A stretch of DNA of 33,299 bases from Lachnospiraceae bacterium (GTDB taxonomy: Bacteria; Bacillota; Clostridia; Lachnospirales; Lachnospiraceae), in contig SVEA01000166.1 of assembly GCA_015057615.1 (NCBI GenBank), forward strand, positions 1 through 33,299. The letters run 5' to 3'. Positions 1-33,226 of this stretch are shown here, piece by piece (position 1 is the stretch's first letter; each line of letters opens with the position of its first letter). The position numbers were made by a program, and so were the translations under genes. The notes beneath the pieces are model-generated. The model ran no database searches, was not told the origin of the DNA, and saw only the letters and a list, made by a program, of their open reading frames with translations.

Positions 1-140
1 ATGATTTCGACAAATGATATCCGATCAGGAGTATTTGCATTCGTTGGTACTTTGGCTCCGTATTTTGGAGCCTTATGTACCGCTACGTAATGAATCTTAA
101 GCGAAAGCGTCTCCGATTCGGATACATTTGACGAAATCAT
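1..140 (+). repeat. Structured intergenic repeat, copy A (may extend left of window)
   Basis: The ends are inverted repeats: 1-9 pairs with 131-139 (ATGATTTCG / CGAAATCAT), with further pairing between 11-29 and 111-130. Inside is a long nested hairpin: CGT 42-44 with ACG 85-87, GGTAC 46-50 with GTACC 77-81, GGCTCC 54-59 with GGAGCC 67-72, around a GTATTTTG loop. A small GC-GAAA-GC hairpin lies near 101-108. The core (CGTTGGT, GTATTTTG, CTTATGTACC, TACGTA) is shared with copies at 13113-13229 and 15261-15380. The stems differ in sequence but keep pairing. Confidence 0.75.
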
Positions 141-13083: not shown

Positions 13084-13112
13084 CTATTGACAAAAGCCTT
13101 CTTAATTTTAAT

Positions 13113-13229
13113 ACGCAACTGTTTGAAGTCGTTGGTCTTAGACCAATGTATTTTGTGGTCTTATGTACCATTACGTACTTCATCCAAGCATTGCATTTTG
13201 TGCAATGCTTGGCGGGACTGCGTGTTGCG
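13113..13229 (+). repeat. Structured intergenic repeat, copy B
   Basis: Terminal ACGCAA/TTGCG stem (13114-13118 with 13225-13229). Hairpin 1 nests GAAGT/ACTTC (13125-13129 / 13177-13181), CGT/ACG, TGGT/ACCA and AGACCA/TGGTCT (13140-13145 / 13156-13161) around a loop containing GTATTTTG. Hairpin 2 is a perfect 12-pair stem, CCAAGCATTGCA (13184-13195) with TGCAATGCTTGG (13201-13212). It is about 75-80 percent like copy C and shares its core with copy A. Confidence 0.85.
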
Positions 13230-13271
13230 AATGAAATTTGTTTCAATTATTGTTGACACATAGATTGTGCA

Positions 13272-13315
13272 AAGAGGGTCTGTTACCTTCCCTCAGGGAG
13301 GTAACAGACCCTCTT
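13272..13315 (-). terminator. Very strong stem-loop, terminator of the DUF378 gene
   Basis: A 20-pair stem with one G-T pair and a CTCA loop (13272-13291 with 13296-13315). It lies 39 bases beyond the stop of the reverse-strand DUF378 gene. The T-run after the stem is short on either strand, so it may block transcription in both directions or protect the 3' end. Confidence 0.75.
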
Positions 13316-13791: not shown

Positions 13792-15177
13792 TTGAGCAGA
13801 AATCAAAAGGTCGTAAAATTTCGAAAGCGAAAAAGTCTTAATATTGGTATCGCTGTGTTTCTCGTTATTTTCATATATATCATAATTAATATTTACATAT
13901 ATCTTACTAAGAATCATATTTCCATTTATGAGGTACATGAGGGTACTACCGCCCAGGATAATCGTATCACGGGGCTCATACTGCGAAAGGAGAAGGTCAT
14001 CACCTCGGATGGGGCCGGATATATATCCTATTTTCAGAAGGAAGGCGCGAGAGTTTCGAAGAATTCTTCCGTTTATGCCGTCGATGAAAGCAGGCAGATC
14101 GTTGATGTCATTTTAAGCGGTGATGTCCCGATCACCTTATCGAAGAAGAATAATGCTGAAATCAAATACGAAATTATGTCATTTCAAAAAAATTACTCAA
14201 AAAGTGATTTCTCCGCTGTCTATAATTTTAAAGAAGAGGCGGATAATTTAGTCCTTGATTTACTGAATACCACTATGCTGGATCACGGACATACGATTCA
14301 GGAGGATACCGGCCTTGATTACTCCTATCAAATGTATAAAAGCAAGGCAAGCGGAGTAATCTCTTATTATGTCGATAATTATGAAACGGTTACCGAGAAT
14401 ACGATTTCTTCGGATCTTTTTCAGCGGGATAATTATGATCGGACCAGTCTGCGTACAACAACCATGCTTCCTCCGAACAGTCCGGTCTATAAAATAATTA
14501 CTTCCGATCAGTGGTCACTTCTGCTTCCGCTCAAGAAAGAGCAGTATGCCGGACTGCAGGAGAAGGAGACCATTAAATTTACGATACGAAAAGACGATGT
14601 GGACGCAAAGGCAAAAATCTCCTTGCTACAGAAAGGATCTGAATTTTATGCAAAGCTTACCATGGATAAGTATATGACAAATTATCTGAACGACCGATTC
14701 CTGGAGGTTGATCTGAAGATCAATGGGGTAGAAGGGCTTAAGATTCCAAAAACCTCTATTGTTGAAAAGAATTTCTACATGGTACCTCTCGAATATTTTA
14801 CCGAAGGCGGCGACAGCGGTAAGAGCGGTCTGATCGTGGAACAATATTCGAAAAACGGAGAGGTTTCCTATCAGTTTGTGCCGGTGGATATTTACTATGA
14901 GGATGAGATTTACGGTTATGTAGATACGGAAATGTTTGAAGTCGGAACCGGAATCGTTTCGGACGGAAATATGGACCGCTTCACCCTGACACAGATGAAT
15001 AAACTAACCGGTGTATACTGTGTGAATACCGGCTATTCCGTATTTAAAAGAATTGAAGTCCTCTATGAAGATAAGGAGTATTGCATTATCGAGAAGAATA
15101 CTCTGAGCGGACTTTCTGCCTATGACCACATTGCACTCGATGGAAGCACCGCAGTGGATCAGGCGATTATTTACTAG
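13792..15177 (+). CDS. HlyD-like membrane-anchored protein
   Basis: A 461-residue protein with a basic cytoplasmic start, one membrane segment (about 17-38) and a large outside domain. The region after the membrane segment (EVHEGTTAQDNRITGLILRKEKVITSDGAGYISY) resembles the biotinyl-lipoyl-like start of HlyD/membrane-fusion proteins, and the LTGVYCVNTGYSVFKRIEVLYEDKEYCIIE part near the C-terminus is the matching end. In Lachnospiraceae such genes sit beside ylmE-sepF-ylmH, as here, which hints at a role in envelope or division. No transporter partner is present. Start is TTG with AGGAGG eight bases upstream. Confidence 0.78.
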   Translation: MSRNQKVVKFRKRKSLNIGIAVFLVIFIYIIINIYIYLTKNHISIYEVHEGTTAQDNRITGLILRKEKVITSDGAGYISYFQKEGARVSKNSSVYAVDESRQIVDVILSGDVPITLSKKNNAEIKYEIMSFQKNYSKSDFSAVYNFKEEADNLVLDLLNTTMLDHGHTIQEDTGLDYSYQMYKSKASGVISYYVDNYETVTENTISSDLFQRDNYDRTSLRTTTMLPPNSPVYKIITSDQWSLLLPLKKEQYAGLQEKETIKFTIRKDDVDAKAKISLLQKGSEFYAKLTMDKYMTNYLNDRFLEVDLKINGVEGLKIPKTSIVEKNFYMVPLEYFTEGGDSGKSGLIVEQYSKNGEVSYQFVPVDIYYEDEIYGYVDTEMFEVGTGIVSDGNMDRFTLTQMNKLTGVYCVNTGYSVFKRIEVLYEDKEYCIIEKNTLSGLSAYDHIALDGSTAVDQAIIY

Positions 15178-15260
15178 AAACAGAGTTTAAAAAGCCAATT
15201 TAATTAACGACTTTAATTTTCACAATTTATGTATTGATAAGTAATTTGAAACATATTTCA

Positions 15261-15380
15261 TGCGCAACACATTGTTCCTAAAGTATTGCAAAAAACGCAA
15301 TACTTGGAATGAAGTACGTAAAGATACATAAGACCACAAAACACGTGGTCTAGATACCAACGACTTCAAACGATCGCGCA
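15261..15380 (-). repeat. Structured intergenic repeat, copy C (reverse orientation)
   Basis: Read on the minus strand it aligns with copy B. The terminal stem is TGCGC (15261-15265) with GCGCA (15376-15380). Hairpin 1: GAAGT (15311-15315) with ACTTC (15363-15367) and AGACCAC (15331-15337) with GTGGTCT (15345-15351). Hairpin 2: AAGTATTGC (15281-15289) with GCAATACTT (15297-15305). Paired positions differ from copy B on both sides of the stem in step. It fills most of the 330-base gap before ylmE. Confidence 0.85.
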
Positions 15381-15508
15381 TTTAAATACGTTTTTAAATT
15401 ACTTGGTTTTCTTTGATTTGTGCTAATTGAAGAAGACGATAGGAAGGCTTTTAAACAAGCATGGACTTATGACATTTATATATTACTTTTATTAAAGGAG
15501 CGATCATT

Positions 15509-33123: not shown

Positions 33124-33199
33124 AAATATGCTGTACGACTGACGGAAGTGGAATTAACCACAGGAAGTACAGCATATTTGAAAGCCGACCGTCTGGGCA
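33124..33199 (+). ncRNA. ZTP (pfl) riboswitch aptamer
   Basis: The region shows the parts of the ZTP/ZMP riboswitch. P1: AAATATGCTGTAC (33124-33136) with GTACAGCATATTT (33167-33179). The conserved GACTGACGG (33137-33145). P2: GTGG (33148-33151) with CCAC (33158-33161). Then CCGTCTGGGCA (33189-33199) preceded by GCCGA. These motifs match the pfl consensus from memory. The class senses ZTP/ZMP, intermediates that rise with folate or one-carbon shortage, and normally controls purine or folate genes. The controlled gene must lie right of the window. Confidence 0.85.
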
Positions 33200-33226
33200 T
33201 GATGCTTGGATTGGTGGGTCTTTTTT
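33181..33226 (+). terminator. Expression platform terminator of the riboswitch
   Basis: AAAGCCGACC (33181-33190) can pair with GGTGGGTCTTT (33213-33223) with one bulge and one mismatch, followed by more T to 33226. The 5' arm overlaps the conserved end of the aptamer, so ligand binding and terminator folding should exclude each other. Confidence 0.65.

Follow-up and report, generated by a model that had tools for sequence, protein, structure and literature searches.

A folded head of about 105 nucleotides carried by MITEs of at least two transposase classes

Repeat copies in the window

The window, by which we mean the whole of contig SVEA01000166.1 (33,299 nt), belongs to a 4.07-Mb genome, referred to below as its own genome. 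It holds three copies of a repeat with a common core, A, B and C, which an initial annotation placed at 1-140, 13113-13229 and 15261-15380; all three were found there, between the longer ORFs as described. The paired stem changes it reported are present in the sequence (GGCTCC/GGAGCC in A, AGACCA/TGGTCT in B, AGACCAC/GTGGTCT in C), and the second hairpin does differ in length between B and C. For every copy, and on either strand, the fold is more stable than in any of 200 dinucleotide shuffles (z -6.80 to -8.38). Two other points needed redrawing. The sequences ATGATTTCG...CGAAATCAT at 1-140, read as a terminal inverted repeat (TIR), form an inner arm, the true right TIR of copy A lying at 160-173. 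The three copies are also not all of one type: copy A is a non-autonomous DNA transposon (MITE) of another type than B and C, with which it has little in common outside a shared, folded head. The elements and their parts are as follows.

1-173, + strand: type A MITE (copy A), delimited by comparison with complete copies in its own genome; left end cut by the contig start
24-129, + strand: folded head of copy A (start of the basal stem, long hairpin, GNRA hairpin), from its row in alignment A5 and the consensus structure
37-93, + strand: core hairpin of copy A, cmsearch with model R1, 80.2 bits (copy among R1's own training sequences)
101-108, + strand: second hairpin of copy A, GCGAAAGC, with a GAAA (GNRA) loop, read from the sequence
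160-173, - strand: right TIR of copy A, reading GTGTGAACAGTAAC on the + strand; exact match to the TIR pattern
about 13088-13272, + strand: type B MITE remnant (copy B), both ends eroded; limits set by eye against the type B consensus
13125-13181, + strand: core hairpin of copy B, R1, 64.3 bits (copy in the training set)
13184-13212, + strand: second hairpin of copy B, with a longer stem and no GNRA loop; inverted repeat 13173-13195/13201-13223
about 15185-15456, - strand: type B MITE (copy C), degenerate ends GTTTAAAAAGCC/GGCTTTTAAAC; limits set by eye
15311-15367, - strand: core hairpin of copy C, R1, 75.9 bits (copy in the training set)

The contig start cuts copy A off on the left, which leaves just its right end and hides its target duplication; no duplication is visible for copies B and C either, which are old, B being a remnant. 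Copy C begins 7 bases past the stop codon of the ORF at 13792-15177. A strong 20-nt inverted repeat (13272-13315, 95 % complementary, 4-nt gap) adjoins the end of copy B. Near the right end of the window, at 33125-33205 on the + strand, lies a ZMP/ZTP riboswitch aptamer (66.5 bits), which was the sole Rfam 15 match in the window at gathering score and is away from the copies. When 12 related loci were searched at E values up to 5, the element itself drew just two miRNA models (E 1.3 and 2.5), both well short of the gathering score. No Rfam family thus matches the element at gathering score in the window or in these loci.

Copy number and MITE types

The family is far larger than the three copies first proposed. 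When as many as two mismatches are allowed, the core pattern CTTATGTACCNNTACGTA has 298 matches in the window's own genome vs 7 for a reversed-pattern control, and R1, a covariance model built from 44 cores of that genome including the three window copies, has at least 150. The elements carrying the core fall into types distinguished by their ends. Complete type A copies in its own genome are mostly 200-205 bp, with 14-bp TIRs GTTACTGTTCACAC/GTGTGAACAGTAAC; type B elements are mostly about 270-310 bp, ending near GATTTGAGTGTCAAAAGC; and type T2, found in other genomes, has ends TAGGCAATTGCGAAACTC and a length of 201-212 bp for most copies. Type A elements are flanked by an 8-bp target duplication in 23 of 28 cases (at most one mismatch), vs 0.95 for shuffled pairs. 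Among 25 T2 rows, some of which may be alternative end pairs of one element, duplications of 10, 11, 12 and 13 bp number 3, 6, 3 and 2 (shuffled 0.14, 0.28, 0.11 and 0.11). Those of type B are variable and weaker, 5, 6, 7 and 8 bp occurring in 8, 11, 8 and 5 of 43 end pairs (shuffled 4.00, 2.02, 0.82 and 0.18), some of which are alternative end pairs of one element; for all types, counts at adjacent lengths can overlap.

TIRs and target-site duplications identify these elements as MITEs. They have no transposase gene, and for types A and T2 autonomous elements with the same ends exist. Of the mobile classes initially offered, MITE or REP-like, the first is therefore borne out by TIRs and duplications, and the second is disfavoured by the distribution of RAYT-like matches. 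A REP-like repeat moved by a RAYT (HUH) transposase would suit the high copy number, the mostly intergenic position and the inverted neighbours seen at some loci, and a GTAG/GTAA tag can be made out by eye beside the hairpin on the minus strand. TIRs with duplications of 8 or 10-13 bp, however, are typical of DDE enzymes. Moreover, RAYT-like matches, taken at E up to 0.001 with just 16 of 117 genomes above the curated cut-off, are present in 8 of the 28 core-bearing genomes vs 48 of the 89 others, and eight of the nine genomes with at least 20 counted cores have none. We consider the REP-like reading very improbable. The window's own genome has no match to NF047646; a single partial Y1_Tnp match at a contig end there (L041/L064, C25) is probably a fragment of an IS200/IS605 transposase. 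Integron attC sites and single-strand origins were among the alternatives considered and set aside.

Some elements have the ends and lack the head: MITEs with type A ends (L190, judged by eye) and, in the window's own genome, one with T2 ends (L046, 847-959). The head is therefore separable from the ends. A larger type A element of 1247 bp (L276, 195-1441) has the core, a duplication CCGACTTA and no listed ORF above 98 aa. In one genome (G006), the long hairpin is repeated in a number of elements, for example L076, where a second and shorter copy lies some 85-110 nt upstream of the main core. At six loci (L116, L156, L082, L130, L102 and L135) two inverted heads stand about 260-330 bp apart, mostly each with its own long basal stem; the L082 pair adjoins the tmRNA gene. 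At L091 (1501-1627, genome G048) only the distal part of the long hairpin is found, in tandem repeats with a 93-bp period.

Transposase partners

A transposase with matching ends, which the initial annotation proposed to look for, was found for types A and T2 on IMG/VR contigs, and for none in the window's own genome. The type A partner (L274, 695-2966) shares the type A ends, is flanked by an exact 8-bp duplication, TAAATGGA, and encodes an IS66-like transposase, whose first 500 residues, the part scanned, score 26.9 bits with PF03050 (cut-off 23.1) and 75.8 bits with NF033517 (cut-off 180). The T2 partner (L271, 368-2163) combines T2 ends and an 11-bp duplication, in which one base differs, with an IS1182-like transposase scoring 48.2 bits with PF05598 (cut-off 23.1) and 68.4 bits with NF033551 (cut-off 270). 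A second T2-ended element (L273, 8985-10751), counted as a partner by its ends and an ORF similar to that of L271, has no evident duplication, and a third contig (L270) has a single T2 end beside a third such IS1182-like ORF (69.1 bits). The core pattern has no match in the viral-contig partner elements with type A or T2 ends. Since these elements encode different transposases and lack the core, one head of about 105 nt is carried by MITEs of at least two, probably three, transposase classes.

In its own genome, the single IS66 transposase copy (L063) was rejected as the type A partner because no type A ends were found around it, and none of five PF01609 matches has paired ends. The type B end has no exact match in the viral contigs, and no type B partner was found there. 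An IS4-family element (L257, about 1010-2600), with ends like ATGTGGTCAACTTAAG, was at first a candidate because it is bordered by a type B end. Its sequence shows it to be an insertion into the core hairpin of a type B copy, where the repeated target of about 13 bp covers GGTACTTAGATCA (insertion and target judged by eye), and it was set aside. The type A consensus has no match in the plasmid collection, nor the type B consensus in the phage collection. Three stretches of the viral contigs match the core pattern; R1 confirms two (L095 and L097), in which a type B element lies between tail genes of a phage, and the third (L096), for which R1 gave no match, was treated as a chance match.

Architecture and covariation of the head

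The head forms a three-way junction in which a basal stem carries two hairpins, one long and one short, the short one capped by a GNRA loop. The long hairpin has two conserved internal loops and a GUNNUUU-like terminal loop. All 78 heads of alignment A5 have the same internal-loop bases, TT and TA; this invariance, like that of the last T of the terminal loop, is partly built in, as the search pattern fixes those bases.

The covariation of the head is strong. In A4, an alignment of 100 core matches from 85 sources whose fit to R1 biases it towards R1's structure, 96.3 % of pair cells hold standard pairs and the covariation score is 0.556, against 0.147 for shuffled alignments and at most 0.099 for slid structures. 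Of its 20 pairs, 17 changed on both sides, which, with the many further copies recovered, upholds the structured family initially proposed from three. Further pair types number 50 vs 46.5 in shuffles, 51 of 500 shuffles being as high; the other measures exceed every shuffle. The variety in the free stem (for example GC 40, CG 27, UA 22 and AU 9) can hardly come from model-fitting alone. When the own-genome cores are taken alone (A2), the covariation score is 0.299 vs 0.135 for shuffles, and pairs changed on both sides (7) are not above the shuffled 6.7, because few subfamilies carry the changes.

A second alignment, A5, was made separately with MAFFT from 78 longer heads, its structure derived by RNAalifold with none imposed. 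It takes 78 of the 100 A4 rows: 20 were dropped as truncated or odd matches, own-genome forms with a long second hairpin or rows near an end, and two more as copies from loci already represented. The consensus has 23 pairs, 18 of them changed on both sides; besides the basal stem and the long hairpin it contains a hairpin of two pairs closing a loop of four bases.

That second hairpin is absent from both the search pattern and R1. Among the 100 cores, two had too little flank for a survey of its loop and in 12 of the other 98 no in-frame loop could be scored, six or more of these being forms with a longer second hairpin. The loop is GNRA in 84 of the 86 scorable in-frame cases. Its second base is A in 54, C in 17, G in 12 and T in 1, and its third is A in 48 and G in 36, with no pyrimidine; the scoring preferred loops starting with G and ending with A and had no preference at the third base. 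One head (L170) keeps a GAGA loop over a closing C-A mismatch.

RNA or DNA

The fold could act in the element's DNA or in its transcript. As DNA, the head would be a cruciform or single-strand hairpin read by a protein in transposition or replication, with a host replication or repair factor or a transposase as the candidate reader; we hold this to be possible but rather unlikely. The elements are DNA transposons with long palindromic arms, and GCGAAAGC forms a very stable mini-hairpin in DNA too. The long hairpin consists almost entirely of Watson-Crick pairs, with G-U in 9 of 1247 pair cells of the A5 heads, and A4 has 17 G-U and 9 A-C among 1906 pair cells; nine tRNAs, for comparison, have G-U in 15 of 197 pairs. 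So few G-U pairs are unusual for an RNA. The own-genome cores of A2, with 25 G-U and 28 A-C, have no wobble preference and no RNA-like drift.

Set against this is the second loop. Stable GNNA loops in DNA do not require a purine at the third base, whereas RNA GNRA loops have one, and the third base is a purine in 84 of 84 G...A loops. The wobble pairs of the whole head lean the same way: G-U outnumbers A-C by 42:9 in the 78 heads (38:9 with identical contexts counted once), split into 30:6 in the four basal pairs and 12:3 in the rest. A G-U pair also closes the long loop in 77 of 78 heads; its last T is in the search pattern and its G is not. The outer arms of 85 elements from other genomes that passed the arm-score cut have 178:181. 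In its own genome the arms lean opposite ways, 65:37 in type A and 132:197 in type B, so shared ancestry alone can skew wobble counts. On balance we lean, not strongly, towards the head acting as plus-strand RNA rather than as DNA.

Distribution and genomic context

The core was found in 28 of 117 genomes searched with R1 (its own included; best 48 candidates per genome), all of one family. In an even sample of the phylum, searched with a strict filter (best 14 candidates a genome, E 1e-6), 2 of 398 genomes had matches, the window's own and one other of the same family. Among the 80 matches listed of at least 109, records are mostly of Lachnospiraceae or unplaced Clostridia, including Roseburia porci, Coprococcus catus, Anaerocolumna, Herbinix, Mobilitalea, Anaerobium and others; three records, from two MAGs under the name Muribaculum or Muribaculaceae, probably carry a wrong label. 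The names of the matched records suggest that the MITE set is centred on the Lachnospiraceae.

The copies are mostly intergenic. Gene context, taken throughout from simple ORF calling, was surveyed in the window and 20 further stretches of its own genome, each of 20 kb. Of the 32 cores in these 21 stretches, 31 are placed between ORFs (minimum 100 aa), though 83 % of the sequence counts as coding. With ORFs of at least 80 aa and a looser pattern that also admits false matches, 19 of 117 own-genome and 45 of 235 other matches fall inside an ORF. Between co-directional genes, own-genome type B elements are antisense in 32 cases and sense in 4 (p 2e-6), type B elements of other genomes in 8 and 4, and T2 elements in 11 and 2 (p 0.02). 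No orientation bias is seen for own-genome type A (antisense/sense 2/6), type A elsewhere (8/10) or other forms (X; 28/36). These counts might mean that types B and T2 do damage when inserted in sense, or that they choose their targets directionally. The bias of type B suggests that transcription matters, which tells against a DNA hairpin; as type B lies antisense to flanking genes, host read-through would mostly carry the opposite strand of the head. In G006, a single 4.15-Mb contig in which R1 scored up to 150 candidates, 18 of 31 full-length matches are co-directional with replication (counted by hand, the terminus assumed opposite dnaA), and there is therefore no strong replication-strand preference either way.

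Constraint on individual copies was assessed in 24 type A copies chosen by their TIRs, with the ends excluded; one of them (L044) has lost the hairpin. Private substitutions occupy 9 of 1331 cells in the core vs 48 of 2835 elsewhere (p 0.009), and all differences from the consensus 36 of 1331 vs 173 of 2835. The first of these comparisons tells against neutral drift of copies after insertion, and the small sample suggests constraint on the copies as well as on source elements.

These data bear on a third reading, in which the head has no function: one ancestral structured MITE would have diversified, its ends swapped by recombination and its palindromes kept perfect by hairpin-templated repair. 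The symmetric drift of the outer arms in other genomes agrees with it, as do inverted or tandem neighbouring heads at some loci and the confinement of most own-genome variation to a few subfamilies. Yet templated repair should also erase asymmetric internal loops, and these persist; the GNRA rule and a strand bias specific to the head need selection; and private substitutions are rarer in the core. We judge the absence of function improbable. Taken together, the observations hint that the fold does something for the elements, perhaps as RNA.

A model for the shared head

We propose, at about even confidence, a set of MITEs mobilised in trans whose shared head acts in cis as plus-strand RNA and aids their retention. 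Transposases of insertion sequences would act in trans on the terminal repeats, an IS66-like enzyme on type A and an IS1182-like one on T2. Once transcribed, the plus-strand head might bind a host factor or alter how the transcript around it is processed, terminated or degraded, and copies would in this way be tolerated and retained; several MITE lineages could for that reason have taken up or kept the same head. A bolder version, which we put forward tentatively and think less probable, makes the head a new class of small functional RNA, protein-binding or even self-processing, serving as a selfish module of several MITE families. Its spread across the Lachnospiraceae, on that tentative version, would reflect a fold that aids the spread or tolerance of the element.

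Comparison with known systems

MITEs are known, and structured MITEs among them. As far as our literature searches reach, one structured head common to MITEs of different transposase classes has not been described; no description of the repeat was found, judging from search listings, which does not imply that it is unpublished.

REP sequences with GTAG or CGTC tags, and the BIMEs they form, are described as palindromic, intergenic and often in inverted pairs (PMC3733652), features that the head elements share. REPs measure 20-40 bp, and the GTAG kind is tied to RAYTs, whereas the head elements measure about 200-310 bp and have TIRs. A term search of that article returned no mention of Firmicutes or Clostridia. 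The bcr1-bcr3 repeats of the Bacillus cereus group are MITE-like, of high copy number and often in UTRs or operon spacers (PMC3446304). The likeness to our elements, drawn from descriptions rather than sequences, lies in the MITE-like form and high copy number; bcr1-bcr3 are not known to share one head between MITEs whose ends and duplications differ.

The closest relatives by their ends are MITEs of known insertion-sequence families. Type A resembles IS66-family MITEs in that its ends and 8-bp duplications match the IS66-like L274; L274, however, lacks the core, and type A-ended MITEs without the head exist. Type T2 resembles IS1182-family MITEs, its ends matching those of the IS1182-like L271 with its 11-bp duplication (one mismatch), but the L271 transposase reaches just 68.4 of the 270 bits set as the NCBIfam cut-off, and L271, too, lacks the core.

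MITEs are commonly viewed as passive leftovers and classed by their ends. In the present elements it is the middle that is kept across many genera, down to compensatory pairs and a GNRA loop, while the ends vary. If the head is active, selection would be at work on the inside of a transposon that has no gene, with hundreds of natural variants within one genome, and an intergenic repeat class absent from Rfam 15 would gain a name.
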